Assembly (NCBI RefSeq): GCF_026967935.1
Contig: NZ_JAPVBL010000006.1
Location: 296,051-360,050, forward strand
Length of the DNA: 64,000 nt
From: Modestobacter sp. VKM Ac-2982
GTDB taxonomy: Bacteria; Actinomycetota; Actinomycetes; Mycobacteriales; Geodermatophilaceae
Reading direction: 5' to 3'
The notes beneath the pieces are model-generated. The model saw nothing but the letters and a program-made list of their open reading frames with translations. It was not told the DNA's origin and searched no databases. Both the position numbers and the translations under genes were made by a program. This document shows, piece after piece, positions 17,724-35,121 of this stretch. Numbering within the stretch: the stretch's first letter is position 1; each line of letters starts with the position of its first letter.

Positions 17724-20700
17724 ATGGGTCGACCGCTGGCACTCGAGGACGTGCACGCCCTGCAACTGCCGGGCGAGCCCACCGTCTCCCCCGACGGGTG
17801 CGCCGTCGTCTACGTGCTGCGCACCACCGACCCCGCCGCCGACGCCGACCGGCACGCGCTGTGGTGGGTCCGCGCCTCGGCCGAGGGCTGGGGGGTGCCG
17901 GCGCCGCTGACCCGGGGCGCCGCCGACACCAGCCCGGCCTTCTCCCCCCGGGGCGACCGGATCGCCTTCCTCCGCCGCGGGGACGGAGCGGCGCAGCTGC
18001 ACGTGCTCCCGGGCGACGGCGGTGAGGCCGAGCAGGTGACCGACCTGCCCGCCGGCGCCGGCGCACCCGTCTGGAGCCCGGACGGCGACCGGATCGCCTT
18101 CACCGCCCCGGTCCGCCCCACCGGGCAGGACGACCACGCACCGATCAGCACCACCCGGATCGGCTGGAAGGCCGACGGCGCGGGGCTGCTGCGCGGCGTC
18201 CGGCAGCACCTGCACGTGCTGGAGCTGGCGACCGGCGAGGTGCGGCAGCTGACCTCCGGGGACTGGCACGCCGGCCGGCCGGCCTGGTCCCCCGACGGCG
18301 CCCGGCTGGCCTTCGCCGCCGCCACCGAGCCCGACGCCGACCTCACCCACCGCTCGCCGGCGCACGTGGTCGACGTCGCCGGTGGCCCGCCCCGCCGGGT
18401 CGGTGACGGCCGCGGCCTGGCCGGCCCGGTGGTGTGGACCGCCGACGGCCAGGCGCTGCTGGTCACCGGCCAGGCCACCGTCGCCGTCGACCACACCGGC
18501 CTGCTGCACCAGCCGCTGGACGACGTCCCGGCCGACCGCGACCTGGCCGCGCCGCTGGACCGCAACGTCATGCCCGGCGGCCCGGGCTACCCCGGCGGTC
18601 TCGCGCAGCTGACCCGGGACGGCACCGAGGTCGTCTTCTGCGTCCGCGACCGCGGCTGCTCGCATGTCTACGCCACCGCCGTCGACGGCTCGGGCACGCC
18701 CCGCCCGGTGCTGACCGGTGCCGACGTCGTCGTCTCCGGGCTGTCGGTGGCCGGTGCGGCCGACGTCGCCGCCGTCGTCCTGGCCGACCCGGCCAGCTAC
18801 GGGGACGTGGGCGTGGTGGACCTGCGCTCGGGTGCCGTCACCCGGCTCACCACGCACACGGCGACCGCGCTCCCCGACGTCGAGCTGGTCGTGCCCCAGC
18901 CCCGGACGTTCACCGTGCACGACGGCACGCAGGTGCACGGCTGGCTGCTGGTCGACCCGGCGACCCCGGGCCCGGCGCCGCTGCTGGTCGACGTGCACGG
19001 CGGCCCGCACAACGCCTGGGCGCCGGCGGCCGACGCCGCCCACCCGTACCACCAGGCGCTGGTCGCCGCGGGCTGGGCGGTGCTGCTGGTCAACCCGCGT
19101 GGCAGTGACGGCTACGGCCGGGAGTTCCTCACCGGTGCCGTCGGCGGCTGGGGCACCGCCGACGAGCGGGACTTCCTGGACCCGGTCGACCAGCTCGTCG
19201 CCGAGGGCGTGGCCGACCCGGCACGGCTGGTGCTCACCGGCTACAGCTACGGCGGCTTCATGACCTGCTGGCTGACCGGCCGCACCGACCGGTTCGCCGC
19301 CGCGATCGCCGGCGGCGTGGTCGCCGACCTGACCAGCATGACCGGCACCAGCGACGCCGGGGAGGTGCTCGCGCTCGAGTACGGCGACCCGGTGACCGAC
19401 CCCGACGCCGTCCGGGCCCTCTCGCCGATCACGAACGTGCACCGGGTCCGCACCCCGACGCTGGTGCTGCACGGCGGTGCGGACGAGCGCTGCCCGGTCG
19501 GCCAGGCCGAGCAGTGGTTCACCGCGCTGCGCACCCAGCGCGTCCCCACCGAGCTCGTCCTCTTCCCGGGCGGCTCACACCTGTTCATCCTGGACGGCCG
19601 CCCCTCGCACCGGGTGGGCTACAGCCGGCGCCTGATCGCCTGGGCCGAGCAGCACGGGAACGGCCGCCCCGCCCTGGACGCCGCCCACTGGCAGCGACGG
19701 CTGGACGAACTCGCCGCCGCGCACCGCGTCCCGGGGGCGGTGCTGGCGATCCGACGGGTGACCCCGGGTGCCGACGACGAGCTGGTGGAGGCCGCCACCG
19801 GCGTGCTCAACAAGTCGACCGGCGTCGAGGTCACCACCGACTCGGTCTTCCAGATCGGCTCCATCACCAAGGTCTGGACGACGACGCTGGTGATGCAGCT
19901 GGTCGACGAGGGGAAGCTGGACCTCGACGCCCCGTTGGTCGAGGTGCTCCCGGAGCTGCAGCTGGGCGACCCGGACGTCGCCAAGCGGGTGACGATGCGG
20001 CACCTGCTGACCCACACCAGCGGCGTCGACGGCGACGTCTTCACCGATACCGGCCGCGGCGACGACTGCATCGAGCAGTACGTGGCCGGGCTGGCCGACG
20101 TGGCGCAGAACCACCCGCTGGGCGCCACCTTCTCCTACTGCAACTCCGGGTTCACGCTGGCCGGCCGGGTGGTCGAGGTGCTCACCGGCCAGACCTGGGA
20201 CGCCGCCCTGCGCGAGCGGGTGATCGAGCCCCTCGGCCTGACCCACACCTCCACGCTGCCGGAGGAGGCGATCCTGCACCGCGCCGCCGTGGGGCACATC
20301 GCCGCCGAGCCCGGCGCCGAGCCGCAGCCGTCGCCGACCTGGCTGCTCCCCCGCTCGCTGGGCCCGGCCGGCCTGGTGAACGCCACCGCCCGGGACGTCA
20401 CCGCCTTCGCCGCGGCCCACCTGCGCGGGGGCGTGGCCGCCGACGGCACCCGGCTGCTGTCCGCGGAGTCGGCGGCGGCGATGACCACCGCGCAGACCGC
20501 CCTCCCGGACACCTGGACCCTCGGCGACTCCTGGGGCCTGGGCTGGATCCGGTTCGACTGGCACGGGGCACGGCTGCACGGCCACGACGGCGGCACCCTG
20601 GGCCAAGGTGCGTTCCTGCGGGTGCTGCCCGGCGAGCGCCCGGGCGAGGGCCTGGTGGTGTCGCTGCTGACCAACGGCGGGGACGTGCTGGACGTCTACG

Positions 20701-21065
20701 CCGACGTGTTCCGCGAGGTCTTCGCCGAACTGGCCGGGGTGACCATGGCGGACGCCCTGCAGCCGCCGGCGGAGCCCCCGGCGGTGGACCCGGCCCGGTA
20801 CGTGGGCGCCTACGAGGGCAGCTCGGTGCAGACCGAGGTGTTCGAACGCGACGGCGGGCTCGTGCTGCGCCAGACGGCGGTCGGCGCCGTCGCCGAGGCG
20901 ACCGGTCAGCCCGTGCAGGAGGCAGAGCTCGTGCCGGTGTCCGACGGGCTGTTCGCGATGCGCGCGCCGGGTACGAAGGGCTGGACGGCGGTCACCTTCC
21001 ACCGGCTGGCCGACGGCAGCGCGTACCTGCACTCCGGCGGCCGCGCCAACCCGAGGAAGGGCTGA
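17724..21065 (+). CDS. fused S9 prolyl-oligopeptidase-type peptidase and S12 serine hydrolase
   Basis: The 1113-residue protein has two enzymes in one chain. Residues about 1-650 are an S9 (prolyl oligopeptidase/acylaminoacyl peptidase) unit: a WD-like beta-propeller, then the hydrolase with nucleophile GYSYGGF (Ser508), the Asp in GGADERC and the His in GGSHLF. Residues about 660-1010 are an S12 class C beta-lactamase-like/D-aminopeptidase-like domain with the catalytic SITK (Ser713, Lys716) and FSYCNSG (YxN-type Tyr), followed by a C-terminal beta domain. The S12 half is very close to the free-standing protein at 35122. No signal peptide is visible. It opens the operon to the racemase gene. 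ATG 17724 is chosen as the first start after the operator. Confidence 0.88.
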   Translation: MGRPLALEDVHALQLPGEPTVSPDGCAVVYVLRTTDPAADADRHALWWVRASAEGWGVPAPLTRGAADTSPAFSPRGDRIAFLRRGDGAAQLHVLPGDGGEAEQVTDLPAGAGAPVWSPDGDRIAFTAPVRPTGQDDHAPISTTRIGWKADGAGLLRGVRQHLHVLELATGEVRQLTSGDWHAGRPAWSPDGARLAFAAATEPDADLTHRSPAHVVDVAGGPPRRVGDGRGLAGPVVWTADGQALLVTGQATVAVDHTGLLHQPLDDVPADRDLAAPLDRNVMPGGPGYPGGLAQLTRDGTEVVFCVRDRGCSHVYATAVDGSGTPRPVLTGADVVVSGLSVAGAADVAAVVLADPASYGDVGVVDLRSGAVTRLTTHTATALPDVELVVPQPRTFTVHDGTQVHGWLLVDPATPGPAPLLVDVHGGPHNAWAPAADAAHPYHQALVAAGWAVLLVNPRGSDGYGREFLTGAVGGWGTADERDFLDPVDQLVAEGVADPARLVLTGYSYGGFMTCWLTGRTDRFAAAIAGGVVADLTSMTGTSDAGEVLALEYGDPVTDPDAVRALSPITNVHRVRTPTLVLHGGADERCPVGQAEQWFTALRTQRVPTELVLFPGGSHLFILDGRPSHRVGYSRRLIAWAEQHGNGRPALDAAHWQRRLDELAAAHRVPGAVLAIRRVTPGADDELVEAATGVLNKSTGVEVTTDSVFQIGSITKVWTTTLVMQLVDEGKLDLDAPLVEVLPELQLGDPDVAKRVTMRHLLTHTSGVDGDVFTDTGRGDDCIEQYVAGLADVAQNHPLGATFSYCNSGFTLAGRVVEVLTGQTWDAALRERVIEPLGLTHTSTLPEEAILHRAAVGHIAAEPGAEPQPSPTWLLPRSLGPAGLVNATARDVTAFAAAHLRGGVAADGTRLLSAESAAAMTTAQTALPDTWTLGDSWGLGWIRFDWHGARLHGHDGGTLGQGAFLRVLPGERPGEGLVVSLLTNGGDVLDVYADVFREVFAELAGVTMADALQPPAEPPAVDPARYVGAYEGSSVQTEVFERDGGLVLRQTAVGAVAEATGQPVQEAELVPVSDGLFAMRAPGTKGWTAVTFHRLADGSAYLHSGGRANPRKG

Positions 21066-21071
21066 TCCCCG

Positions 21072-22271
21072 GTGACCCACCTGCTCCCCCAGGACGCCCC
21101 GCCCACCACGCTCACCGAGTTCGACGGGCTGCTGCCCCAGATGCTCGCCGACCTCGAGGAGCTGGTGACCGTCGAGTCGCCGTCGGCCGACCTCGCCGCG
21201 GTGGCCGCGGGCGCCGCCCGGGTGGCCCGGCTGGGCACCCGGGCGCTGGACGCCGAGCCGGAGGTGCTCCAGCACGAGGGCTGCACGCACCTGCGCTGGC
21301 GGCTCGGCGCGGGCCCGCGCCGGGTGCTGCTGCTCTGCCACCAGGACACCGTCTGGCCGCTGGGCACCCTCGCGGAGATCCCGTGGTCGGTGGCCGACGG
21401 GGTGGTGCGCGGGCCGGGCTGCTTCGACATGAAGGCCGGCATCGTGCTGGCGTTCACCGCGCTGGCCCGGCTGCAGGCCGCGGGCGAGGACCTGGACGGG
21501 GTGACCGTGCTGGTCACCGGGGACGAGGAGATCGGCTCCCCGACCTCGGCCGACCTGATCCGCGCCGAGACCGCCGGCTGTGCGGCGGTGCTCGTGCTGG
21601 AGGCCAGTGCCGACGGCGGCGCGCTCAAGACCGGCCGCAAGGGCGCCTCGATGTACGACCTGCTGGTCACCGGCCGCGCCGCGCACGCCGGGCTGGAGCC
21701 GGAGAAGGGCATCAGCAGCACCGTCGAGCTCGCCCACCAGGTGCTGGCGATCGCCGACCTGGCCGACCCGGCGCAGGGCACCACGGTCACGCCGACGGCG
21801 CTCACCTCGGGCACCACCACGAACACCGTGCCGGCCACCGGCCGGCTCAGCGTCGACGTCCGGGCGCTGACCGTCGCCGAGCAGCAGCGGGTCGACGCCG
21901 GGATGCGGGCGCTGACCCCGCAGCTGCCGGGGGCGGTCCTGCAGCTGCGCGGCGGGATCAACCGGCCGCCGCTGGAGGAGGCCGCCTCGGCCGGGCTGTT
22001 CGCGCTGGCCGGGACGGTGTCGGCCCGGCTGGGCCTGCCGGCGCCGGCCGGGGTCACCGTCGGGGGCGCCTCGGACGGGAACCTCACCGCCGGCATCGGG
22101 GTGCCCACGCTGGACGGTCTGGGGGCGGTCGGCGGCGGGGCGCACGCGGTCGGGGAGCACGTGCTCGCCGACCAGCTCCCCGGTCGGGCGGCGCTCCTCG
22201 CCGGCCTGGTGCGTGCGGTGCTGGACGGCGAGGGCCTCGGTGGCCCGGACGAAGAGGCCCCCGGTGAATGA
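21072..22271 (+). CDS. M20-family metallopeptidase/deacylase
   Basis: The 399-residue zinc enzyme of the carboxypeptidase G2/ArgE/DapE family has the metal ligands in LCHQDTVWP (HxD), GCFDMKAG and TGDEEIGS (catalytic Glu pair), and the dimerisation domain opens near RAAHAG. The family cleaves N-acyl or peptide bonds of amino acids. It starts with a GTG six bases after the fusion gene, and its last eight bases overlap the GNAT gene start. In Geobacillus an M20 enzyme next to an N-succinylamino acid racemase and a GNAT protein removes the succinyl group from the L-amino acid; the same role is inferred here. Confidence 0.85.
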   Translation: MTHLLPQDAPPTTLTEFDGLLPQMLADLEELVTVESPSADLAAVAAGAARVARLGTRALDAEPEVLQHEGCTHLRWRLGAGPRRVLLLCHQDTVWPLGTLAEIPWSVADGVVRGPGCFDMKAGIVLAFTALARLQAAGEDLDGVTVLVTGDEEIGSPTSADLIRAETAGCAAVLVLEASADGGALKTGRKGASMYDLLVTGRAAHAGLEPEKGISSTVELAHQVLAIADLADPAQGTTVTPTALTSGTTTNTVPATGRLSVDVRALTVAEQQRVDAGMRALTPQLPGAVLQLRGGINRPPLEEAASAGLFALAGTVSARLGLPAPAGVTVGGASDGNLTAGIGVPTLDGLGAVGGGAHAVGEHVLADQLPGRAALLAGLVRAVLDGEGLGGPDEEAPGE

Positions 22272-23277
22272 GCACGCCGCACCAAGCCCGGCCGGGTCCG
22301 CGGCACCGACCATGGGCGGCGTGACCGACCTGATCGACGCGACCCTGCTGCCGCTGCCTGCCACCGGGCCGGACCAGGGAGTCGCCCGCGCCGGCGCCGC
22401 GGCCGCCGCGGCCGCAGCCACCGAGGCCGCCATCGCCTCGGGGGTGCAGGTCGTGGCGCTCACCGACCTGGCCGACCTGCGGGCCGTCCAGACGCTGTTC
22501 GAGTCGATCTGGCACCCGGCGCCGGACAACCCGCCGGTGACCGTGGAGCTGATGCGGGCCCTGACCAAGGCCGGCAACCCGTTGTTCGGCGCCTACGCCG
22601 GCCCCGAGCTGGTCGGTGCGTGCGTGGGCTTCTTCGCCGCCCCGTCGGGCACCGCCCTGCACAGCCACGTCACCGGCGTCGTGCCGTCGGCGCAACGCCG
22701 CAGCGTCGGTCGGGCGCTGAAGCTGCATCAACGGGCCTGGGCTCTGCAGCGCGGCCTCGACCGGATCAGCTGGACGTTCGACCCACTCGTGCGGCGCAAC
22801 GCCTGGTTCAACCTCGGCCGGCTGGCCGCCACGCCGGTGGAGTACCTGCCGGACTTCTACGGCCCGATGGGCGACACCATCAACGCCTCCGACCAGTCCG
22901 ACCGGCTGCTCACCTGCTGGTCGCTGGAGGCCCCCGCGGTGGTGCGGGCCGTCGCCGGCCACCCGGTGCACGTGGACCTGCCGGCGCTGCTGGGCGCCGG
23001 GGCGGCCGCCGTCCTGGCCGTGGGACCCGACGGGAGCCCGCAGGCCCGACCCGGGGTCCCCGGGGGGACGGCGCTGATCGCCGTCCCACCGGACGTGGAA
23101 GCGCTGCGCGCCCGCGACCCCGCGCTGGCCGCGGAGTGGCGGGTGGCCGTGCGGGCCGCCCTCGGTGGTGCGCTCACCGCGGGGGCCCGGGTGCGGGGTT
23201 TCGCCCGCGAGGGCTGGTACGTCGTCGACGGCGCGGGTCACCCCGGCGCCCCTGAGGCCGGGAGGGCCACCCCGTGA
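22264..23277 (+). CDS. COG3375-type GNAT acyltransferase, possible D-amino acid N-succinyltransferase
   Basis: The 337-residue protein has an N-terminal GNAT fold (residues about 55-200: LTDLADLRAVQTLFESIW, GAYAGPELVGACVGFF, VVPSAQRRSVGRALKLHQRAWA acyl-CoA binding loop, WTFDPLVRRNAWFNLGRLA) and a C-terminal domain. WTFDPL..RNA..N is characteristic of COG3375 proteins, which occur next to enolase-superfamily racemases. The GTG at 22264 overlaps the M20 gene; a later ATG at 22312 is the alternative start. The end overlaps the racemase gene by GTGA. The proposed reaction is succinyl-CoA-dependent acylation of D-amino acids, by analogy with the Geobacillus pathway. Confidence 0.8.
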   Translation: MNEHAAPSPAGSAAPTMGGVTDLIDATLLPLPATGPDQGVARAGAAAAAAAATEAAIASGVQVVALTDLADLRAVQTLFESIWHPAPDNPPVTVELMRALTKAGNPLFGAYAGPELVGACVGFFAAPSGTALHSHVTGVVPSAQRRSVGRALKLHQRAWALQRGLDRISWTFDPLVRRNAWFNLGRLAATPVEYLPDFYGPMGDTINASDQSDRLLTCWSLEAPAVVRAVAGHPVHVDLPALLGAGAAAVLAVGPDGSPQARPGVPGGTALIAVPPDVEALRARDPALAAEWRVAVRAALGGALTAGARVRGFAREGWYVVDGAGHPGAPEAGRATP

Positions 23278-24380
23278 AGCTCGAGGCCGTGGAACTGCGC
23301 CGGATCCGGATGCCGCTGGTGGCGCCGTTCCGCACGTCGTTCGGGAGCCAGACCGCGCGCGACATCCTGCTCGTGCGGGCGCGCACGGACGTCGCCGAGG
23401 GCTGGGGCGAGTGCGCCGCGCTGCCGGACCCGCGCTACTCCGCCGAGTACGTCGACGGCGTCGCCGACGTGCTGCGCCGGTTCTTCCTCCCCGCCGTCGC
23501 CGCCGTCCCCGACCTGGACGCGCACGCGGTCGGCCGGGCGTTGGCGCCCTTCTCCGGGCACTGGATGGCCAAGGCGGCGATCGAGACGGCGGTGCTGGAC
23601 GCGGAGCTGCGCGCGGGCGGGCGGTCCTTCGGCTCGTTCCTGGGCGCTGCCGTCGACCGGGTGCCCTGTGGGGTCTCGGTCGGGATCATGGACTCGGTCC
23701 CGGAGCTGCTGGCGGCCGTCGGCGGCTACCTGGGCCAGGGGTACCTGCGGATCAAGCTGAAGATCGAGCCGGGCTGGGACGTGGAGCCGGTCCGCGCGGT
23801 CCGGGAGCGCTTCGGCGACGTGGCGCTGCAGGTGGACGCGAACACCGCCTACGCCGTCTCCGACGCCCGGCACCTGGCCCGGCTGGACCCCTTCGACCTG
23901 CTGCTGATCGAGCAGCCGCTGGACGAGGACGACGTGCTGGGCCACGCCGAGCTGGCCCGCATCGTGCGCACGCCGATCTGCCTGGACGAGTCGATCACCT
24001 CGGCCCGCTCGGCCGCGGCGGCGATCACGCTGGGCGCCTGCTCGATCGTGAACGTGAAGCCGGCCCGGGTCGGCGGGTACCTGGAGGCCCGGCGGATCCA
24101 CGACCTGTGCGCCGCGCACGGCGTGCCGGTGTGGTGCGGCGGGATGCTGGAGACGGGGCTGGGTCGGGCGGCGAACGTGGCGCTGGCCGCGCTGCCGAAC
24201 TTCACCCTGCCCGGGGACACCTCGGCCTCCGACCGGTACTACGCCACCGACATCACCGAACCGTTCCGGCTGGAGGACGGCCACCTGCGGGTGCCCACCG
24301 GGCCCGGCCTGGGCGTGGAGCCCGACCCGGCGCTGCTCGACGAGGTCACCACCTCGGTGGAGGAGATCGACCTGCGGTGA
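23274..24380 (+). CDS. enolase-superfamily N-succinylamino acid racemase / o-succinylbenzoate synthase
   Basis: The 368-residue enzyme belongs to the muconate-lactonising subgroup: the KxK catalytic pair in LRIKLKIEPGWD (about residues 160-165), metal ligands in QVDAN, LLIEQPL and CLDESIT, and the second catalytic Lys in VNVKPARVGG. The family includes MenC (OSBS, menaquinone synthesis) and NSAR, often both activities in one protein. No other men gene is nearby, and the GNAT and M20 partners overlap or abut it, so I favour NSAR: racemising N-succinyl-D- to N-succinyl-L-amino acids. GTG start with GGAGGG upstream, overlapping the GNAT stop. Confidence 0.85.
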   Translation: MKLEAVELRRIRMPLVAPFRTSFGSQTARDILLVRARTDVAEGWGECAALPDPRYSAEYVDGVADVLRRFFLPAVAAVPDLDAHAVGRALAPFSGHWMAKAAIETAVLDAELRAGGRSFGSFLGAAVDRVPCGVSVGIMDSVPELLAAVGGYLGQGYLRIKLKIEPGWDVEPVRAVRERFGDVALQVDANTAYAVSDARHLARLDPFDLLLIEQPLDEDDVLGHAELARIVRTPICLDESITSARSAAAAITLGACSIVNVKPARVGGYLEARRIHDLCAAHGVPVWCGGMLETGLGRAANVALAALPNFTLPGDTSASDRYYATDITEPFRLEDGHLRVPTGPGLGVEPDPALLDEVTTSVEEIDLR

Positions 24381-24473: not shown

Positions 24474-26168
24474 GTGAGCCTGCCTACGAGCTCGGTACCA
24501 GGTCTGTCGACGCTCACCGCTGCGTCGGCGGCGGCGCCGCGCGCCAGCCTCGGGCACGTCCTGGACCACCTCGGCACCACCCTGCTCGAGGTGGCCGCCG
24601 GTGACCCGACGGCCGACCTGGCCGAGCAGGGGGTCGGCGGGCTGGTCATCCACGACCCGGTCGACCCCCCGGCACTGCCGTCCCGGGGGCTGGTGCTGGG
24701 CGTGGGGGTGTACGAGCCGGACGACGTCCTCGACCTGCTGGAGCAGACCGCCGCCGCCGGCGGGGCCGGGCTGGTGGTGCGCGCGCCGGCGCCCACCGAC
24801 CCCCGGATCGCCGCGGTCGCCGAACGCACCGGCACGGTGCTGCTCGCGCTGACCCGCGGCGCCAGCTGGAACCAGCTGGCCACCCTGGTCCGCTCGCTGC
24901 TCGGTCAGGGCGAGGTCGGGACGGCGGGCTCCGAGTCGCTGGGCGGGGTGCCGGGCGGGGACCTGTTCGCCCTCGCCAACGCGATCGCCGCGTTGCTGGA
25001 CGCGCCGGTCACCATCGAGGACCGCAGCTCGCACATCCTCGCCTTCTCCGGCCGGCAGGACGAGGCCGACGAGTCGCGGATCCAGACCGTCCTCGGCCGC
25101 CAGGTGCCCGACCGGTTCACCCGCCGGCTCGAGGCCCACGGCGTGTTCCGGCAGCTCTACGCCACCGACCGCCCGGTGTGGATGTCCGCCGAGGCGCTCG
25201 GGATGCCCGAGATCACCGTCGCCCGGGTCGCGGTCGCGGTGCGGGCCGGTGACGAGATCCTGGGCACCATCTGGGCTGCCGTCGACCGGCCGCTGGACCC
25301 GGCGCGCGAGGGCAGCCTGGTCGATGCGGCGAAGCTGGTCGCCCTGCACCTGCTGCGGATGCGGGCCGGCGCCGACGTCGAGCGCCGGCTGGCCAGCGAG
25401 CTGGTCGCCACCGCGCTGGAGGGTGGGCCGGGCACGGTCGACGCGCTGAGCCGGCTGGGGCTGGCCGACCGGCCGCTGATCGTGCTGGCGATGGGCCTGA
25501 CCGAGAGCACCGACGAGCACGGCACGCTGAGCCTGGCCCGGCGCGAAGCCGAGCGGCAGCGCTCCGCCGACGCGCTGGCCGTGCACCTGACCGCGCTGCA
25601 CCCGGGCTCGGTCGTCGCCCTGGTCGGCGGGGTCTGCTACGCCGTCCTGCCGGTCGGGGCGGACGCCCCCTCGGCCGACGTGCGGGCCGCCGCGGTCGCC
25701 ACCGAGTTCCTGCAGCGCACCGGTGGCCGGGTGCCCGGGATGGTCGGTGTCGGCACCGTCGCCCTGGACGTCTCGGCGCTGACCCGCTCCCGGGACGCCG
25801 CCGACCGGGCCCTGCGGGTGCTGCGCAACGGCACCACCTCACGCCGGGTGGCCCGCGCCGCCGACGTGCACATCGAGTCGTTGATGCTGCAGCTGGCGGA
25901 CCTGGCCGCCGCCGAGGGGCACGAGGCCTCGGGGCCGGTGGCCCGGCTGGCCGAGTACGACGCCGCGCACCGCGCCCAGCTGGTGGAGACGCTGCGGGCC
26001 TGGCTGGACGCCTTCGGCGACGCGATCGCCGCCTCCGCCCGGGTGCACGTGCACCCGAACACCTTCCGCTACCGGCTGCGCCGGATCGCCGAGGTGGGCG
26101 GGATCGACCTGGGTGACGCCGACTCCCGGTTCGCCGCGATGCTGGAGCTGCGCCTGCTCCGCTGGTGA
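24474..26168 (+). CDS. PucR-family transcriptional regulator
   Basis: The 564-residue protein has an N-terminal sensor region (about 20-150, resembling the PucR/purine-catabolism domain), a middle GGDEF-like/CdaR domain (about 300-430) and the C-terminal PucR helix-turn-helix (about 500-560; LVETLRAWLDAFGD...VHPNTFRYRLRRIAEVGGIDL). PucR/CdaR proteins usually activate genes for use of particular nitrogen or carbon compounds. It is placed in the middle of the peptide/D-amino acid locus, between the racemase operon and the transporter operon, and an 18-bp palindrome sits before its own start and before each of those units, so it is the best candidate for their regulator. GTG start, probably leaderless. 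Confidence 0.88.
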   Translation: MSLPTSSVPGLSTLTAASAAAPRASLGHVLDHLGTTLLEVAAGDPTADLAEQGVGGLVIHDPVDPPALPSRGLVLGVGVYEPDDVLDLLEQTAAAGGAGLVVRAPAPTDPRIAAVAERTGTVLLALTRGASWNQLATLVRSLLGQGEVGTAGSESLGGVPGGDLFALANAIAALLDAPVTIEDRSSHILAFSGRQDEADESRIQTVLGRQVPDRFTRRLEAHGVFRQLYATDRPVWMSAEALGMPEITVARVAVAVRAGDEILGTIWAAVDRPLDPAREGSLVDAAKLVALHLLRMRAGADVERRLASELVATALEGGPGTVDALSRLGLADRPLIVLAMGLTESTDEHGTLSLARREAERQRSADALAVHLTALHPGSVVALVGGVCYAVLPVGADAPSADVRAAAVATEFLQRTGGRVPGMVGVGTVALDVSALTRSRDAADRALRVLRNGTTSRRVARAADVHIESLMLQLADLAAAEGHEASGPVARLAEYDAAHRAQLVETLRAWLDAFGDAIAASARVHVHPNTFRYRLRRIAEVGGIDLGDADSRFAAMLELRLLRW

Positions 26169-26189: not shown

Positions 26190-27152
26190 TCAGCCGGCCA
26201 CCGCGCGGGCGAAGCGCTGCGACCACTCCGCGAGCCGCACCCGCAGCTCCTCCGGGGCGACCACGGTGAACTCCGCGCGGACGGCGCCCAGCACCAGGGC
26301 CGGCCAGTCCAGGTCGTCGGTCTCCAGGTGCAGCCGGCAGCGGTCCGGGCCCTCGTCGGTGACCCGCACCCAGCGGCCGACCCGGTCCCGGACGACCGCC
26401 GCCGGGGCCTCGACCACCGCCTCCACGACGGTCGGCGTGCGGAACTGGTCCATGCCGGCCCGGACGAACGCGGCGGCGTCCTCGGCCGGCAACGGTCGCG
26501 GCGCGAACCGGGCCCCGGTGCCACCCAGCCCGGACATCCGGTCCAGCCGGAAGGTGCGCCAGTCACCCCGGGACGGGTCGTAGGCGACCAGGTACCACCG
26601 GTGACCCAGCGGCACCAGCCGGTGCGGCTCCACCAGCCGCTCCGCCGGTCGCCCCCCGGCGGCGGTGTAGGTGAACTCCAGCCGCTCGGTCTCCCGGCAG
26701 GCCTGGGCGGCCGCCACCAGCACGCCCGGGTCGACCGCGGGGCCGCCGTCGGACCAGGGCGGGGCGGGCACGGTCATCGCCCGCAGCGCCTCCACCCGGC
26801 GGCGCAGCCGGGCGGGCAGCACCGGCACCACCTTGGTCAGGGCCCGTACCGAGGCCTCGGCCATCCCGGCGCCCGCCCCGGCCGCCGCGGCCTGCAGCCC
26901 CACGGTGAGCGCCACCGCCTCGTCGTCGTCGAGCACCAGCGGCGGCAGCGCGGCCCCGGCGGCCAGTCGGTAGCCGCCGTCGACCCCGGGACGGGCCTCC
27001 ACCGGGTAGCCGAGCTCACGCAGCCGGTCCACGTCCCGGCGCAACGTGCGCAGCGAGACGCCCAGCCGGCCGGCCAGGTCGGCGCCGGCCCAGTCGCGGC
27101 GGCCCTGCATCAGCGAGAGCAGGCGCAGCGCACGGGAGGTGGGGTCGACCAT
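26190..27152 (-). CDS. WYL-domain transcriptional regulator (YafY type)
   Basis: The 320-residue protein has an N-terminal winged helix (RALRLLSLMQGRRDWAGADLAGRLGVSLRTLRRDVDRL, residues about 5-55), a WYL domain (RLEFTYTAAGG...RLVEPHRLVPLGHRWYLVAYD, about 155-215) and a C-terminal WCX-type extension. WYL regulators bind nucleic-acid or other ligands and respond to stress or metabolites. I chose the ATG at 27152; a longer frame from 27242 would read across the divergent promoter. It is divergent from a DinB-family gene with a 92-base gap containing inverted repeats, so that gene is its likely target. Confidence 0.88.
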   Translation of the reverse strand: MVDPTSRALRLLSLMQGRRDWAGADLAGRLGVSLRTLRRDVDRLRELGYPVEARPGVDGGYRLAAGAALPPLVLDDDEAVALTVGLQAAAAGAGAGMAEASVRALTKVVPVLPARLRRRVEALRAMTVPAPPWSDGGPAVDPGVLVAAAQACRETERLEFTYTAAGGRPAERLVEPHRLVPLGHRWYLVAYDPSRGDWRTFRLDRMSGLGGTGARFAPRPLPAEDAAAFVRAGMDQFRTPTVVEAVVEAPAAVVRDRVGRWVRVTDEGPDRCRLHLETDDLDWPALVLGAVRAEFTVVAPEELRVRLAEWSQRFARAVAG

Positions 27153-27162
27153 GCGCTGAGAC

Positions 27163-27190
27163 TGCCATCCATCGCGGACAGGATCTGGCA
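27163..27190. promoter_or_regulatory. inverted repeat in the WYL regulator/DinB intergenic region
   Basis: TGCCATCC (27163-27170) faces GGATCTGGCA (27181-27190), one extra base in the right arm. A second repeat, CGATGC-N6-GCATCG, lies at 27192-27209. One or both may be operators of the WYL regulator for the divergent genes. Confidence 0.4.
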
Positions 27191-27792: not shown

Positions 27793-28770
27793 TCAGTCGG
27801 TGAGGCGGGCCAGCGGGGCGCGCGCCGGCGCGAAGTGACAGGCAGTGGCGTGCCGGTGGTCGGCCGTCGGCTCGGTGGTCCGGCAGACCTCCCGCTCCGG
27901 GTGGACGAGCGGCCCGACCGGGCAACGCGGGTGGTAGCGGCACCCCGGCGGCGGGGCGTGCGGGTCGGCCGGCTCCGCGGCCGCCACCGCCGTCGGGGCC
28001 GGGTCGGCGGCGGTCGCGGCCGGCCGGGCGTGCGCCGAGTCGGGCACGGCCGCGAGCAGGTCCCGGGTGTAGGGGTGCTGCGGGTCGGCGAGCACCTGCT
28101 CGGCCGGCCCGTGCTCGACGATGCGGCCCAGGTACATGACGGCGATCTCGCTGGCCACGTACCGGACCACGGCCAGGTTGTGCGAGATGAACAGCATCGA
28201 GGTGCCCAGCTCCCGCTGCAGCCGGCGCACCAGGTTCAACACCGTGCCCTGGATGGAGACGTCGAGCGCGGAGGTGATCTCGTCGGCGACGACCACCGCG
28301 GGCCGGGCGGCCAGCGCCCGGGCCAGCGCGACCCGCTGGCGCTGGCCGCCCGACAGCTGACCGGGATGGGCGCCGGCCCGGGCCGGGTCCAGCTCGACCA
28401 GCTCCAGCAACCGGGCCACCTCGCGCCGCCGGTCGGCCGAGCCGGTCCCCCGCGGCACCGCCTCGGCGATGCTCTCCCCGATCGTCATCCGCGGGTCGAG
28501 CGAGGAGTACGGGTCCTGGAAGACCATCTGCACCGGCCGCGGGCCCGACCCGTGCCGGATCGGTTCCCCGTCGAGCAGGATCCGGCCCCCGGACAACGGC
28601 GTGAGCCCCACGGCCGCGCGGGCCAGTGTCGACTTGCCCGAGCCGGATTCCCCCACCAGCCCGACGACGGCGCCGTCCGGCACGGTGAGGCTGACCCGGT
28701 CGACGGCGGTCATCGCCCGCCGCCGGGAGCCGTACCGGACGCTGACGTCGTCGAACCGCAGTTCGCTCAT
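27793..28770 (-). CDS. dipeptide/oligopeptide ABC transporter ATP-binding protein (DppF/OppF type)
   Basis: The 325-residue ATPase has Walker A GESGSGKST, Q-loop MVFQDPYSSLDP, signature LSGGQRQRVALARAL, Walker B VVVADEITSALD and H-loop ISHNLAV. A C-terminal oligopeptide-transporter extension carries the CRYHPRCP...CHFAP cysteines that probably bind an Fe-S cluster. It energises uptake with the fused ATPase encoded upstream, whose stop codon overlaps its ATG by four bases. It is the last gene of the transporter operon. The substrate is inferred as short peptides, and from the locus possibly D-residue-containing peptides. Confidence 0.9.
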   Translation of the reverse strand: MSELRFDDVSVRYGSRRRAMTAVDRVSLTVPDGAVVGLVGESGSGKSTLARAAVGLTPLSGGRILLDGEPIRHGSGPRPVQMVFQDPYSSLDPRMTIGESIAEAVPRGTGSADRRREVARLLELVELDPARAGAHPGQLSGGQRQRVALARALAARPAVVVADEITSALDVSIQGTVLNLVRRLQRELGTSMLFISHNLAVVRYVASEIAVMYLGRIVEHGPAEQVLADPQHPYTRDLLAAVPDSAHARPAATAADPAPTAVAAAEPADPHAPPPGCRYHPRCPVGPLVHPEREVCRTTEPTADHRHATACHFAPARAPLARLTD

Positions 28771-30788
28771 GCCCGCTCCCCCAGGGAGACCGCGACGGGT
28801 GCCGCACCGGGGACGGCGAGGTCGGCGACCTCACCGGCGTGCCAGCAGGCCACCCGCCAGCCGGTCCCGTCGTCGGCGAGGGCCGGGTCCTCGACCGTGC
28901 ACCGTGCCGAGGCGAGCGGGCAGCGGGGGGCGTAGGCGCAGCCCGGGGGCTGGTGCGCCGGGTCGACCGGCCGGCCGGGGATCACCGGCAGCGGTGAGTC
29001 CAGGTCGACGTGCATGTCGGGCACCGCGGCGACCAGTGCCCGGGTGTACGGGTGGCGGGCGGCGGTGCCGAGCTCGGCGGCGGGCAGGTCCTCCACCACC
29101 CGGCCGGCGTACATCACCAGCACGCGGTCGCAGACCTGGCCGACGACGGCGACGTCGTGGCTGATCAGCAGCAGCGCCACGCCGTCGGCGGCGCGCACGG
29201 CGGCCAGCAGGTCCAGCACCTGACGCTGCACGGTGACGTCCAGCGCGGTGGTCGGCTCGTCGGCGACGATCAACGTCGGTTCCCCCATCAGGCCCATGCC
29301 GATCATCGCCCGCTGCCGCATGCCGCCGGAGAACTCGTGCGGGTACTGGTGCGCGCGGCGCTCGGCCGCGGGGACGCGGACGGCGCGCAGCCGGTCGACG
29401 GCACGGCCCATCGCCTGCCGCCGGTTCATCCCCTGGTGCTCCTCGGCCACCTCGGCCAGCTGACGCCCGATCCGGCGGGTCGGGTTGAACGACGTCATCG
29501 GGTCCTGGAACACCATCGCGAACGCGGTGCCCAGCAACCGACGGTGGCTGCGCTCGGACCCGGTCAGCAGGTCGGTGCCCTGGAACTCCAGCCGGTCCGC
29601 GGTGACCTCGCCGGGCTGCTCGACCAGCCGGGCGATCGCCAGTGCGGTGAGCGACTTGCCCGAACCGGACTCCCCGACGACCCCGACCGCCTCGCCCCGG
29701 CCGATCCGGAAGCTCACCCCGCGGACCGGGCGCACCAGGCCACCGGGCCCCGGAAAGGTCACCGAGAGGTCCTGGACGTCGAGCACCGGCCGGCCGGCCG
29801 CCGGGCCGGGGTCGGTGGCCGGCGTGCCGTCGTCGGTGACCGGGGCCGGCACGGTGTCGGCCCGGGGGCCGCTGCGCACCGGGTACGCCCCGTTCACGGC
29901 GGCGGTCAGCCCGATGCCCTTGGCCACCGCCTCACCGAACAGGTTGAACGCGAGCCCGGCGACGACGATCGCGACGCCGGGGGCCAGCGCCGCCTCCGGG
30001 TGGATGTAGATGCCGCTGAGCCCGTCCTGCAGCAGCCGTCCCCAGTCGTAGCTGGGCGCCTGCACGCCCAGGCCGAGGAAGGACAGCCCGGTGAAGGCCA
30101 GCAGCGCGCCGCCGGCACCGATCGTCGCGTTCACCACCAGTGGCTCGCCGATGTTGGGCAGCACGTGCCGGACGAGCACCCGCACCCGGCCGACCCCGGC
30201 GATGCGGGCGGCGGAGACGAAGTCACGGTCGGCGATCCCGGCGGCCAGCGTGTGGGAGAGCCGGGCGAAGGAGGGGGCACCGGCGAAGCCGATGGCCAGC
30301 ACCGCCCCGGTCGCCCCCACCCCGAAGACGACGGCGAAGAAGAGCGCCAGCAGCAGCCCGGGGAAGGCGACGGCGATGTCGACCGCTGCGGTCACCAGCC
30401 GCCCGGCGCGCCGGCCCAGGAGCAGGGGCGCGGTGCCCAGCAGCAACCCGAGGACCACCGCGATCAGCGTCGCCAGCAGCGCCAGGCCGATGGACAGCCG
30501 GGTGGCCACGAGCACCCGGGCGAACAGGTCGCGGCCCAGGGCATCGGTGCCGACCCAGTGCTCGCCGGAGGCGCCCTGCATCGCCGCGGTGGTGTCCACG
30601 GTGTCGGCCGCATCGGACCAGAACACCGGGCCGAACACCGCCAGCAGGAGCACCACGGTCAGCAGCAGGCCCGCGCCGGCGCCGACCGGGGTGCGGAGCA
30701 CCGCGAGCCAGCGGGTGCCCGCCGCCGACCGTCGGGAGGGGGCGGCCGGCTGGTCGGCGTCGGTGGGCGGCACGGGTGCGATCGTCAT
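28767..30788 (-). CDS. fused ABC permease and ATP-binding protein (DppC-DppD)
   Basis: The 673-residue fusion has an N-terminal half (about 1-310) that is a DppC-type permease with an N-terminal helix, the periplasmic segment HWVGTDALGRDLFARVL and the cytoplasmic EAA-like loop SAARIAGVGRVRVLVRHVLPN. The C-terminal half (about 340-650) is a DppD-type ATPase: Walker A GESGSGKS, MVFQDPMTSFNP, signature FSGGMRQRAMI, Walker B IVADEPTTALD, ISHDVAV and the C-terminal cysteine motif CAYAPRCP...CWHAG. The two are joined by a Pro/Asp-rich linker near 310-340. Such fusions occur in actinobacterial peptide transporters. It starts four bases after dppB ends. Confidence 0.9.
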   Translation of the reverse strand: MTIAPVPPTDADQPAAPSRRSAAGTRWLAVLRTPVGAGAGLLLTVVLLLAVFGPVFWSDAADTVDTTAAMQGASGEHWVGTDALGRDLFARVLVATRLSIGLALLATLIAVVLGLLLGTAPLLLGRRAGRLVTAAVDIAVAFPGLLLALFFAVVFGVGATGAVLAIGFAGAPSFARLSHTLAAGIADRDFVSAARIAGVGRVRVLVRHVLPNIGEPLVVNATIGAGGALLAFTGLSFLGLGVQAPSYDWGRLLQDGLSGIYIHPEAALAPGVAIVVAGLAFNLFGEAVAKGIGLTAAVNGAYPVRSGPRADTVPAPVTDDGTPATDPGPAAGRPVLDVQDLSVTFPGPGGLVRPVRGVSFRIGRGEAVGVVGESGSGKSLTALAIARLVEQPGEVTADRLEFQGTDLLTGSERSHRRLLGTAFAMVFQDPMTSFNPTRRIGRQLAEVAEEHQGMNRRQAMGRAVDRLRAVRVPAAERRAHQYPHEFSGGMRQRAMIGMGLMGEPTLIVADEPTTALDVTVQRQVLDLLAAVRAADGVALLLISHDVAVVGQVCDRVLVMYAGRVVEDLPAAELGTAARHPYTRALVAAVPDMHVDLDSPLPVIPGRPVDPAHQPPGCAYAPRCPLASARCTVEDPALADDGTGWRVACWHAGEVADLAVPGAAPVAVSLGERA

Positions 30789-30792
30789 CGGC

Positions 30793-31821
30793 TCAGCTCT
30801 CCCTGATGGCCGAGCGCGGGTCCAGCAGCGCGAGCACCACGTCGACGGTCAGGTTCACCAGCAGCACCCCGGCGCCGTAGACGAGCACGATGCCCTGCAC
30901 CACGGAGTAGTCCTTGAGCAGGATCGAGGAGACGATCGTGCTGCCCAGGCCCGGCCAGGCGAAGACGTTCTCCACCAGCACCGTGCCGGCGACCAGCGCG
31001 CTGAGCAGCAGCCCGCCCAGCGTGATGGTCGAGGTCAGCGCGTTGGGCATGGCGTGCCGGAGGTAGATCTTCGGCGCCGGGAGGCGTTTGGCCCGGGCGG
31101 TGCGCACGTGGTCGGCCTGCAGCACCGACAGCATCTCCACCCGCAGGATCCGGGCCAGCGCCGCGGCCGGCCCGACGGCCAGGGCCAGCACCGGCAGGAC
31201 GTAGGAGCTCGCGTCCTGCTGGCCCGCCACCGGCAGCCAGCCCAGCTGGACGCCGAAGACGTAGACCAGGCCGACGCCGAGCAGGAAGTCCGGGACCGCC
31301 CCGGCGACGACGCTCGCCGAGGAGAACGCCAGCTCGCGGCGGCGGGCCCGCCCACCCCGGGTCAGCACGCCCATCGCCACCCCGATCGGGACGGCCAGGA
31401 CCACCACCACCAGGAACGCCAGCACCGCCAGCTGGGCCGTCGCCGGCAACCGCTGGGAGATCACCTGGGAGACCGGCAGCCGAGAGGTCAGCGACGTGCC
31501 GAGGTCGCCGGTGAACACGCCCTGCAGGTAGTGCACGTACTGCAGCCACAGCGGGTCGTCCAGACCGAGGGACGCCCGCCGGGCCGCCACCAGCGACGCC
31601 GGTGCGGTCGGCCCCAGCGCGGCCCGGACCGGGTCACCCGGGATCAGGTGGATCATCAGGAACGACGCGGTGACCAGCACCCACAGCGAGACGACGAACC
31701 GGCCGGCGCGCCGGGCGGCGAACCGCAGCCACGGGCTGTCGAGCGCCGCGTCCACCCCCCGGTGCCCCGCCGTCGCGCCGGTCGTTGCCGTCGCGCCGGT
31801 CGCCGTCGTCGTGCTCGTCAC
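30793..31821 (-). CDS. ABC transporter permease (DppB type)
   Basis: The 342-residue membrane protein has six predicted helices: a first helix near residues 35-55, a long periplasmic loop (DDPLWLQYVHYLQGVFTGDLGTS, typical of DppB/OppB), helices from 125 onward, and the EAA loop VRTARAKRLPAPKIYLRHAMPNAL. It forms the channel with the permease half of the next gene. It lies 40 bases downstream of the binding-protein gene and four bases upstream of the fusion gene. Confidence 0.9.
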   Translation of the reverse strand: MTSTTTATGATATTGATAGHRGVDAALDSPWLRFAARRAGRFVVSLWVLVTASFLMIHLIPGDPVRAALGPTAPASLVAARRASLGLDDPLWLQYVHYLQGVFTGDLGTSLTSRLPVSQVISQRLPATAQLAVLAFLVVVVLAVPIGVAMGVLTRGGRARRRELAFSSASVVAGAVPDFLLGVGLVYVFGVQLGWLPVAGQQDASSYVLPVLALAVGPAAALARILRVEMLSVLQADHVRTARAKRLPAPKIYLRHAMPNALTSTITLGGLLLSALVAGTVLVENVFAWPGLGSTIVSSILLKDYSVVQGIVLVYGAGVLLVNLTVDVVLALLDPRSAIRES

Positions 31822-31861: not shown

Positions 31862-33445
31862 TCAGTCGACCATCCGGATGCTGGTCGGCTGGAGGACGTC
31901 GACGACCTCGAACTCCGCGCCGCTGCCGAAGAAGCTCACGTCCTGGTTGGCGAACGGGACGACGTCGGCGTCCCGGACCAGGGCGGCCTCCGCCTCCAGC
32001 CAGGTGTCGCAGCCCTCCGTGCCGATCATGGTCATCGCCTCGCCCACCAGCTGGGTGTAGTCGGGGTTGTCGATCGCGGCGAAGTTGTTGCCGTCGGGCA
32101 CGGTCGGGCCGGACAGGAAGGGCACCATCTGGTCAGGGCTGCTGACGTTGACCGGGATCCAGGCGACCTCCCAGTCACCGGTGCCGAAGATGGTCTCGAC
32201 CGCGGCGGTCTCGTCCTTCGGCGTCGTCGTCACCTCCGCGCCGAGCTCGGTCCAGGCTGCGACGACGAGCTCGGCGGCCGCGGAGCCGGGCGCGCCCAGC
32301 GCGCTGTCGTAGAGGAACGTCAGCTCCAGCCGCTGGCCGTCCTTGCTGCGCACGCCGTCGGCGCCGACCTGCCAGCCGGCCTCGTCGAGCAGTTGCTGCG
32401 CCGCCGCGAGGTCGTGCTCGGGCAGCGCGCCGGAGACCGAGTCGCCGGGGCAGGAGGCCGGTGCGGAGGCGGCGAACGTGGTGCCGGGTCCGCCACGGCC
32501 GGAGGTGAGCACCTCGGCCAGCTGGTCCAGGTCGACCGCCTGGGTCAGCGCCATCCGCACCGCCGGGTCGGCCGTGGGCCGGCCCTCGGCCTGGTGGAAC
32601 CACATCTCGCCGAGCACCGCGGTCACGGTCGCGTCGAACAGGCCCTCCTCGGCCAGCCGCTCGGCGTCCGGGCCGAGGACCTGGGCGGCGTTGAGCCCCC
32701 CGGACAGCAGCAGGTTGGCCGAGGTCGTCTCGTTGCCGACGACCTGGGCCACGATCTCGTCGGGCATGCCCTCGGCGTCGGTGCTGGCGCCGCCGGGGCC
32801 CCAGGTGTACCCCTCGCGCAGGGTGTAGGTGTAGTGGTCGCTGGGAACAGCCTCGGTCAGCTCGTACGGCCCGGTGCCGAGGGTCTCCGAGGCCAGCTGG
32901 TCACGGTCCTCCAGCCCACCGGCGCAGACCATCGGGACGCCGGCCAGACCCTCCAGCACGAAGGGCGCGGGCCCGGCCAGGTCCATGGTCACGGTGTTGG
33001 TGGCGTCGTCCGCGGTGGCCTGGACGCCGACCGGTACGAAGACCCCGAGGAAGGGGCTCTGGTTGGCCGGGTCGGCGATCCAGTTGAGGTTCGCCGCCGC
33101 GTCGCTCGCGGTGAAGGGTGAGCCGTCGGAGCAGGTGACGTCGTCGCCGATGGTCAGGGTGACGGTCTCGGCATCGACCGTCCAGTCCTCTGCGATCCCC
33201 GAGACGACCTCCCCCTCGCTGTCGATGAACACCAGCGAGTCGTAGGCGAAGTGGCTGAGCTGGAAGAGGTCGCTGGCCGCCGAGGCCTGCGGGTCGAGGT
33301 TCCCCGGGTCGGAGGACAGCGCCATGGTGAAGGTGCCGCCGTCGACGACCTCACCGCTGCCGCCACCTCCGTCGTCTCCACCGCCGCACCCGGCGAGGAG
33401 GAGCGTGGCGGCGGAGACGCCGACGCCGGTCCGGATGAGCCTCAT
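31862..33445 (-). CDS. peptide ABC transporter substrate-binding lipoprotein (SBP family 5)
   Basis: The 527-residue lipoprotein has a signal peptide ending in LLLAGCGGG (lipobox Cys near residue 20), an acidic/Gly linker, and a family 5 extracellular solute-binding protein (DppA/OppA fold) with TFTMALSSDPGNLDPQ at the N terminus of the mature domain. It captures peptides outside the cell for the permease-ATPase complex. AGGAGAGG precedes the ATG at 33445. First gene of the operon; an 18-bp palindrome shared with pucR is centred about 70 bases upstream. Confidence 0.92.
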   Translation of the reverse strand: MRLIRTGVGVSAATLLLAGCGGGDDGGGGSGEVVDGGTFTMALSSDPGNLDPQASAASDLFQLSHFAYDSLVFIDSEGEVVSGIAEDWTVDAETVTLTIGDDVTCSDGSPFTASDAAANLNWIADPANQSPFLGVFVPVGVQATADDATNTVTMDLAGPAPFVLEGLAGVPMVCAGGLEDRDQLASETLGTGPYELTEAVPSDHYTYTLREGYTWGPGGASTDAEGMPDEIVAQVVGNETTSANLLLSGGLNAAQVLGPDAERLAEEGLFDATVTAVLGEMWFHQAEGRPTADPAVRMALTQAVDLDQLAEVLTSGRGGPGTTFAASAPASCPGDSVSGALPEHDLAAAQQLLDEAGWQVGADGVRSKDGQRLELTFLYDSALGAPGSAAAELVVAAWTELGAEVTTTPKDETAAVETIFGTGDWEVAWIPVNVSSPDQMVPFLSGPTVPDGNNFAAIDNPDYTQLVGEAMTMIGTEGCDTWLEAEAALVRDADVVPFANQDVSFFGSGAEFEVVDVLQPTSIRMVD

Positions 33446-33569: not shown

Positions 33570-34958
33570 TCATCCGGCGACCCGCGGGACGGCGCGGCCG
33601 ATGTGCATGAACCGGGCGCGACCTGCGCCGTCGTCGCCGAGGAAGGCGAACGGCACGTGCAGGCCGGACTGGGCCTGCACCGGGATGAGCGTGTCCGGGG
33701 CGAAGGAGACCAGCTCGCTGCGCTCGGGCTGCTCGCCCAGGTCCAGGGCCTCGTCCTTGGGGAGCATCTCCAGCCAGATCCGGCCGTCGTCGTCCTGGCT
33801 GACGACCAGGTCGGCGACCCGACTGCTGTACGTGCCGACGTAGCGCGTCGCGTCGACCCGGGGCGGGTCGGCCGGCGGCACCGGCAGCTCCCGCAGCTGC
33901 ACGTCGGCGAGCTCGCGCAGCACGTGCCCGACGACGTCGCGGTACAGCCCGTACGGGTCCCCGCCGTTGGTGAGCAGGACGACGGCGATGCCCCGCTCGG
34001 GCAGCACCCGGAGGAACGAGGCCTGGCCGATGGTGTTGCCGTCGTGGCCGACCACCGGGGTGCCGTGGCCGTCGAACAGCTCCCAGCCGAGCCCCCAGGC
34101 GTCGCCCATCACCCGGATGTCGGGCAGCCGCACCCGGCGCTCCTGCATCGCCGCCACCGTGCCGGCGTCCAGCACCGTCGACCCGTCGGGCGCCTTGCCG
34201 GCCTCCAGGTGCATCCGGGCGAAGGCGAGCAGGTCCCGCGGTCGCATCGCCAGCGTGGAGCCGGCCGGGGCGTTGGACCGGGCCATCGCCCACATCGGTG
34301 CCGGCACCTCCGGGGCGTCCGGCTCGGGGCGCACGTGGCCGACCGCCACCCGGTGCACGATCGCCTCGTAGGGGCTGGCCGCGGCGTGGGTGAGGCCCAG
34401 CGGGGTGAACAGGCGCTCGGCCAGGCACTCGTCGTAGGGCTTGCCGCGCAGCACCTCCACCAGCCGGCCGAGGACGCAGTAGCCGGCGTTGTTGTAGGAG
34501 AACTGCTCACCGGGCGGGAAGAGCTGCGCCAGGTCGCCCAGGCCGGCGACGTAGCGCTCCAGTGCGTCGTCGCCGCGGCCGGTGTCGGTGAAGACGTCAC
34601 CCTCGAACCCGGCGGTGTGGCTGAGCAACTGCTCGACGGTGAGGGTGCGGGCAGCGTCCTCGTCGGCCAGCGTGAAGCCGGGCAGGTGAGCGCTGACCGG
34701 ATCGGTCAGCGAGACCAGACCCTCGTCGACCAGCTGCATCACCAGGGTCGCCGTCCAGACCTTGGTGATCGAGCCGATCTGGAACAGCGCGTCCGGGGTC
34801 GCCGCCACCCCCGTCGCGGTGCTGAGCGACCCGGCGGCGGCGTCGACCACCTCGCCGTCGGCGAGCACTGCCACCCCGGCTGCCGGCACCTCGTGCGCGG
34901 CCAGCAGCGCCGGCAGGTGCTCGCGGATCCAGGCCCCGACCTCGTCCAGCTTCGTCAT
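33570..34958 (-). CDS. S12-family serine hydrolase (D-peptidase/beta-lactamase-like)
   Basis: The 462-residue protein has a class C beta-lactamase/D-aminopeptidase-like domain (about 1-355): SITK (Ser63, Lys66) is the nucleophile and base, FSYNNAG gives the YxN motif, and GHDGNTIGQ occupies the third active-site box. A C-terminal beta domain of about 100 residues follows. No signal peptide is visible, so it is probably cytoplasmic. The domain is related to the S12 half of the fusion at 17724 and to the protein at 35122, but clearly more distant than those two are to each other (YNN instead of YCN). It is divergent from the 35122 gene. Cleavage of D-peptides or esters is inferred from the family and locus. 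Confidence 0.87.
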   Translation of the reverse strand: MTKLDEVGAWIREHLPALLAAHEVPAAGVAVLADGEVVDAAAGSLSTATGVAATPDALFQIGSITKVWTATLVMQLVDEGLVSLTDPVSAHLPGFTLADEDAARTLTVEQLLSHTAGFEGDVFTDTGRGDDALERYVAGLGDLAQLFPPGEQFSYNNAGYCVLGRLVEVLRGKPYDECLAERLFTPLGLTHAAASPYEAIVHRVAVGHVRPEPDAPEVPAPMWAMARSNAPAGSTLAMRPRDLLAFARMHLEAGKAPDGSTVLDAGTVAAMQERRVRLPDIRVMGDAWGLGWELFDGHGTPVVGHDGNTIGQASFLRVLPERGIAVVLLTNGGDPYGLYRDVVGHVLRELADVQLRELPVPPADPPRVDATRYVGTYSSRVADLVVSQDDDGRIWLEMLPKDEALDLGEQPERSELVSFAPDTLIPVQAQSGLHVPFAFLGDDGAGRARFMHIGRAVPRVAG

Positions 34959-35041: not shown

Positions 35042-35121
35042 GAGACCCCGGTGGCCGGGGCGGGAGGCTGCGCCCATGGGCCGGACGTGACGGCCCGGGG
35101 CCCGATCGGACGGAGCAGCAC

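Follow-up and report, generated by a model that had tools for sequence, protein, structure and literature searches.

A GNAT acyltransferase, an N-succinylamino acid racemase (NSAR) and an M20 deacylase form a gene set for irreversible conversion of D- into L-amino acids, and such irreversible conversion is reportedly what the NSAR pathway of Sakai et al. 2006 achieves. S9 carboxypeptidases have been structurally characterized from Geobacillus stearothermophilus (8wt1) and Deinococcus radiodurans (5yzm-5yzo); unlike the protein analyzed here, their chains consist of S9 alone and none has an S12 domain. In S12 D-aminopeptidases, six residues (S, K, Y, N, H and G) have been named (PMC3347556), while PBP-type thioesterases such as SurE couple an N-terminal L-residue with a C-terminal D-residue (PMC11735501).

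The DNA that we analyzed, hereafter the window, is a stretch of 64,000 nucleotides from Modestobacter sp. VKM Ac-2982. On its + strand, positions 17724-21065 form a single intact open frame encoding 1113 amino acids plus stop, with zero internal stops. An earlier note on this DNA read the frame as an S9 peptidase and an S12 serine hydrolase joined in one protein. This is borne out by the open frame, by Pfam domains of both families and by at least 107 fused homologs. Codon-position GC of the gene (0.78/0.54/0.97) matches that of its neighbors, and the frame therefore reads as coding. Pfam detects PD40 propeller repeats (PF07676) and Peptidase_S9 (PF00326; residues 444-644, 145 bits) in the S9 half, followed by Beta-lactamase/S12 (PF00144; residues 657-987, 214 bits); the tail beyond also belongs to the S12 half. 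The gene is divided as follows.

17724..19640, + strand: S9 half, residues 1-639, beta-propeller plus alpha/beta-hydrolase (Pfam PF00326/PF07676; triad Ser508/Asp587/His619; Foldseek match 8wt1)
19641..19685, + strand: fusion junction or linker, WAEQHGNGRPALDAA, delimited with the linker-length distribution; a variant of TGGACSGARCAGCACGTGAC with 3 mismatches at 19641
19686..21065, + strand: S12 half, penicillin-recognising serine hydrolase with C-terminal extension and stop codon (Pfam PF00144; Ser713/Lys716, Tyr805-x-Asn807, His954-x-Gly956; PDB matches)

Across the junction (19640-19740), the frame is unbroken in two independent assemblies with 93% identity, including that of Modestobacter caceresii, and in all 107 distinct fused proteins. 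The linker has 11-32 residues among relatives, mostly 15-20. Some relatives carry separate genes, as would be expected if two genes had been falsely joined in assembly through a missed stop or a frameshift, but the 107 distinct fused sequences have no stop. An artefact of this kind is thereby ruled out, its probability being practically nil.

A search for proteins with both domains yielded these homologs, at least 107 distinct ones, from across the actinomycetes. The full-length fusion is encoded in 27 of 395 class-level genomes (the window's own counted) and in 80 named loci, whose hosts include Amycolatopsis, Streptomyces, Lentzea, Microbacterium, Arthrobacter, Nocardioides and Klenkia. It also occurs on ten Streptomyces or Embleya plasmid records, and one instance lies beyond the class (G601, 48%). 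The nearest hosts are M. caceresii and Modestobacter sp. VKM Ac-2977, with 93% identity of the fusion. Fused homologs in other genomes rule out that the fusion is new to this strain. At NCBI, fused homologs are named only "serine hydrolase". One of them, WP_266737458.1 from a Streptomyces plasmid, is a full-length fusion in the same cluster, yet its annotation covers one domain and leaves the double active site unmentioned. Our literature searches, limited to open-access text, found no paper on an S9-S12 fusion. The arrangement, which the earlier note had not seen described, is thus made of known families and undescribed within the searchable literature, but it is not rare; the fused form is common and represents a standard actinomycete architecture.

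Several further copies and pairings came to light. Arthrobacter clusters contain an additional S9-S12 fusion, divergent at 46-48% identity, beside GNAT and NSAR (L112:18240-21623 on the - strand; L116, - strand, about 19162-22500). In G014, a second fusion copy with an interrupted S9 part is located close to a contig end (L048; C1:751-4084). A plasmid of the betaproteobacterium Variovorax paradoxus (L183, 9914-13293) has adjoining S12 and S9 genes in reversed order, possibly an independent pairing of both families.

The catalytic motifs are at the positions given by the earlier note: GYSYGGF with Ser508, SITK with Ser713 and Lys716, and YCNSG from Tyr805. All 107 fused sequences retain S508, D587, H619, S713, K716, Y805, N807, H954 and G956. 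Such invariance goes well past what chance would produce. Because these residues never vary in 107 distinct sequences, both active sites are under selection. The S9 half has the GxSxGG nucleophile motif together with the Asp and His of the family S9 triad (S508, D587, H619). It also has the S9 two-domain layout, an N-terminal beta-propeller followed by a C-terminal hydrolase, both in the AlphaFold model and in the Foldseek alignment to 8wt1 (667 columns). The model of the whole fusion has a mean pLDDT of 90.8 and a pTM of 0.72, the orientation between domains being uncertain. The best Foldseek match of the S9 half is the S9 carboxypeptidase 8wt1 (TMt 0.91, E 1.8e-51), and the structurally nearest proteins are the Geobacillus and Deinococcus S9 carboxypeptidases (TMt 0.88-0.91). 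By structural and sequence closeness, this half is most like a carboxypeptidase, for which it is a candidate. The earlier pairing of an L-peptide-type oligopeptidase with a D-type enzyme thus stands as regards two strongly conserved active sites, but the S9 half is nearer to S9 carboxypeptidases than to a generic oligopeptidase.

The S12 half has the family S12 motifs SxxK, YxN and HxG (S713, K716, Y805, N807, H954, G956), and all six residues of the S12 D-aminopeptidases are present and invariant in the fusion. Its nearest PDB sequences are IS11, SurE, Ulm16, the R61 DD-peptidase and alkaline D-peptidase. From these relatives and from the gene context, we infer that it may act on D-residues. 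Esterases and lactamases are found among S12 folds too, which counts against such a role. If the domain were one of these, the cluster would handle N-acyl or ester compounds rather than D-peptides. Sub-threshold matches to the NCBIfam methyl acetate hydrolase AcmB (86 bits, cut-off 550) and to class C beta-lactamases point that way. However, the S12 half has an HxG motif and not KTG, which is usual in class C beta-lactamases, and it shares its cluster with a peptide importer and the NSAR triad; we regard an esterase or lactamase as very unlikely. The fusion has no apparent signal peptide or membrane segment in its sequence, consistent with a cytoplasmic location.

The genes around the fusion are listed below, with occurrence counted in 68 named loci, each 20 kb or longer.

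21072..22271, + strand: M20 metallohydrolase, carboxypeptidase G2-like, proposed N-acyl-L-amino acid hydrolase (Pfam PF01546/PF07687; nearest structure 1cg2; 38/68 loci)
22312..23277, + strand: GNAT-family acyltransferase, proposed D-amino acid N-succinyltransferase (Pfam PF13480/PF00583; 41/68 loci)
23274..24380, + strand: N-succinylamino acid racemase (NSAR/OSBS), enolase superfamily (1sja, 579 bits; TIGR01928, 293.7 bits; 42/68 loci)
24474..26168, + strand: PucR-type transcriptional regulator (Pfam PF13556; 40/68 loci)
27793..28770, - strand: Opp/Dpp ABC transporter ATPase, OppF type (66/68 loci)
28767..30788, - strand: Opp/Dpp permease-ATPase fusion, OppC-OppD, 673 amino acids (Pfam BPD_transp_1, ABC_tran and oligo_HPY; 60/68 loci)
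30793..31821, - strand: Opp/Dpp permease, OppB type (59/68 loci)
31862..33445, - strand: family 5 solute-binding protein, SBP (Pfam PF00496; 59/68 loci)
33570..34958, - strand: free S12 hydrolase S12a, 49% identity to the fused S12 half (Pfam PF00144; separate clade, support 100)
35107..35126, + strand: putative ribosome-binding site and GTG start of S12b (matches the Klenkia/G024 linker TGG ACG GAG CAG CAC GTG AC)
35122..36525, + strand: free S12 hydrolase S12b, 73% identity to the fused S12 half (groups within the fused S12 clade)
36537..38036, + strand: amidohydrolase, D-aminoacylase type, PRK09061 (NF006560, 631.6 bits, cut-off 340)

The recurrent order is S12a-SBP-OppB-OppCD-OppF-fusion-M20-GNAT-NSAR-PucR. 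Judging by the listed coordinates, 26 of 27 fused genomes have NSAR no more than 8 kb from the fusion, whereas NSAR is found in 111 of all 395 genomes; many Amycolatopsis loci lack the GNAT, NSAR and M20 genes within 10 kb of it. In the window, the GNAT frame runs 4 bases into that of NSAR, and M20 is directly upstream of GNAT; in one Streptomyces plasmid, the OppF gene shares 4 bases with the fusion gene. Modestobacter-type clusters have a WYL regulator and a mycothiol-S-transferase gene inserted (window 26190-27772), which are absent from most other loci.

The racemase neighbor matches the Amycolatopsis N-acylamino acid racemase 1sja over its full length (579 bits), and the catalytic lysines are in place, with KLK (K161/K163) and NVKP motifs aligned. 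Its TIGR01928 score of 293.7 bits (cut-off 200.65) is the only match above the cut-off in the genome. It is not the only OSBS of the genome, however, as a true MenC is encoded at a separate site (C1:796348; PRK02901, 433 bits, cut-off 288). Because of this separate MenC, the cluster NSAR is not needed for menaquinone, and a menaquinone role for the cluster racemase (MLE) is disfavored. In a public Streptomyces record (L182 1-527), the cluster NSAR is annotated as menC/menaquinone biosynthesis. GNAT acyltransferase and M20 deacylase genes adjoin NSAR, as in an NSAR pathway. Succinyl-CoA is proposed as the acyl donor and a D-amino acid as the substrate of the cluster GNAT.

The intact fusion, the conservation of both active sites and of the cluster, and the family of each part are directly established. 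Since GNAT, NSAR and M20 match a D-to-L conversion pathway, we read the fusion as a mixed-chirality peptidase; it is, in our judgment, probably a cytoplasmic enzyme with two active sites that dismantles D-amino-acid peptides within an import and D-to-L conversion cluster. In the mechanism we envisage, the Opp-type importer would take up short peptides containing D-amino acids. The N-terminal S9 domain would trim L-residues and the C-terminal S12 domain, of the DD-peptidase/D-aminopeptidase fold family, would cut at D-residues. Together with its S12 companions, the fusion could then degrade peptides, stalling at neither chirality. Freed D-amino acids would be N-acylated by GNAT, racemized by NSAR and deacylated by M20 to L-amino acids, all under putative PucR control. 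The idea of mixed-peptide processing in the earlier note fits this context of NSAR, GNAT, M20, a peptide importer and extra S12 enzymes, whereas stereospecificity is presumed, as are the peptide substrate, the hand-over between the halves, the order of cuts and the action in sequence that the note suggested. The D-aminoacylase-type amidohydrolase in the same cluster counts for a D-amino-acid role. Against the proposed function, many different N-acyl amino acids are substrates of NSAR-type enzymes, and the triad might therefore handle acylated residues of other source, and some relatives have S9 without a fused S12, so the fusion is dispensable there.

Which D-amino-acid peptides would be involved may be asked in two ways. 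The cluster could specifically salvage peptidoglycan stem peptides (L-Ala-D-Glu-mDAP-D-Ala), as the R61 DD-peptidase among the S12 relatives, the D-glutamate-deacylase-type amidohydrolase and the carboxypeptidase G2-like M20 might indicate. This we consider unlikely: the racemase is an NSAR and not an L-Ala-D/L-Glu epimerase, and none of the annotated cluster genes was seen to belong to an L,D-carboxypeptidase, murein amidase or muramyl-ligase family. The match of the S12 half to the non-ribosomal peptide cyclases SurE and Ulm16, and antibiotic-producing hosts such as Amycolatopsis and Streptomyces, suggest instead a system that degrades or detoxifies non-ribosomal D-amino-acid peptides, the host's own or those of competitors. 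Microbacterium, Arthrobacter and Nocardioides also carry the system in its full catabolic context, however, and such a specialization seems rather improbable.

The history of the gene bears on why the halves are joined. In a quick S9 tree rooted on a paralog, with SH-aLRT as its only support measure, a branch with separate, overlapping S9 and S12 genes (family f31) falls outside the fused forms. At ten f31 loci, the S12 frame overlaps the S9 end in another frame. The overlap in G522 is ATGAGTGA, with a Shine-Dalgarno sequence (AGGAG) upstream. The f31 pairs of G186 and G370 likewise belong to this Opp/PucR cluster, and their contigs also encode NSAR. Within the fused forms, family f34 (L058-L065, L067-L074, L076, L079) has AAGGAG, about 6 bases and then an in-frame start at 18 of 18 junctions, the start being ATG in 17 and GTG in one (L079). 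The junction peptide there is K-E-x-x-M, V replacing M in one, with the x positions unconstrained and the linker length variable. Elsewhere in these genes, in-frame pairs of Shine-Dalgarno and ATG are rare (44 in 108,157 residues, or 0.011 expected per junction), although a simple probability does not apply to f34 junction sequences, as they are related. The pattern suggests that f34 may also make free S12 from an internal start at the junction.

In the window's own family, the joined gene has come apart again. The S9-only genes of G009, G016, G017 and G033 nest among fused ones. The G009 protein ends in VPGGLFALRPPGTQERTAVTSAQLSDGSMHAGGRADPRKG, which is the S12-domain tail, about the last 45 residues (window: VSDGLFAMRAPGTKGWTAVTFHRLADGSAYLHSGGRANPRKG); this remnant is a deletion scar, and a shorter one is retained in the S9-only protein of G017. 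Separate genes in close relatives as proof of a spurious fusion are ruled out by this nesting inside the fused clade and by the S12 tail of G009. Relatives with separate genes, which the earlier note would have taken as refutation had there been no fused forms, do exist, and the outer branch has overlapping genes, but the cases in the window's family arose secondarily, by loss from an ancestor that had the fusion, as the deletion scar and a recycled linker indicate.

The recycled linker concerns S12b (35122-36525), which falls inside the family's fused S12 clade with support 97. In Klenkia and G024, the fusion itself fills the S12b slot beside S12a and the amidohydrolase. The S12b start region at 35107-35126, CGGACGGAGCAGCACGTGAC, matches the linker codons TGG ACG GAG CAG CAC GTG AC of these fusions, against a chance expectation of 0.01 matches in the window; GACGGAGCAGCACGTGAC is exact in both. 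Given the clade placement, the Klenkia/G024 slot and the linker-codon match, S12b most plausibly descends from a fused copy by loss of the S9 half, its putative ribosome-binding site and GTG start being taken from linker codons. Sites homologous to 35107-35126 are present in L038, L040 and L043.

A sequence of states is therefore traceable from overlapping S9 and S12 genes, through in-frame fusions with Shine-Dalgarno and ATG at the junction, to plain fusions and secondary splitting in the window's family. These graded fusion and fission states are still visible, including a start codon made of former coding sequence. The overlapping genes of outer-branch relatives in the same cluster, the in-frame start with Shine-Dalgarno in every f34 fusion and the repeated re-splitting in the window's family would also suit a simpler account, in which the halves were joined for co-expression only: frames of a translationally coupled pair merged into one chain without functional gain. 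We hold this to be a real possibility, somewhat short of an even chance, as most lineages retain the fusion without an internal start, with conserved active-site residues and a linker mostly of 15-20 residues. More tentatively, the mixed-chirality peptidase can be specified further. One chain would pair an S9 carboxypeptidase of the L-type with an S12 peptidase of the D-type, and the two might alternate on mixed D/L peptides and feed the NSAR converter. The internal start of f34, by also making free S12, would serve to tune the output, while the window lineage would arrive at the same result by freeing an S12 gene with a recycled-linker start.

If the proposed function is correct, the cluster is an operon for growth on D-amino-acid peptides, widespread in soil actinomycetes. 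The annotation 'o-succinylbenzoate synthase' would acquire another meaning in such clusters, and the NSAR pathway would gain a candidate source of substrate.

With regard to known systems, the S9 half resembles the carboxypeptidases 8wt1 and 5yzm-5yzo in the whole propeller-plus-hydrolase fold at 28-31% identity, and shares their family and triad type. SxxK, YxN and HxG are common to the fusion and to MEROPS S12 enzymes (Streptomyces R61 DD-peptidase 1cef, alkaline D-peptidase 4y7p, Ochrobactrum D-aminopeptidase, SurE/Ulm16), and R61, alkaline D-peptidase and SurE/Ulm16 are clear sequence matches to its S12 half. Unlike in those enzymes, the S12 domain of the fusion sits behind an S9 peptidase, in an import and catabolic cluster, and no signal peptide is apparent. 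We found no description in open-access text of an NSAR pathway tied to peptide import and to a peptidase of the S9-S12 type. The window cluster has NSAR with GNAT and M20 neighbors, likewise the arrangement of the Sakai et al. 2006 pathway, but here NSAR shares its cluster with a peptide importer and the S9-S12 fusion, from which the D-amino acids would come.
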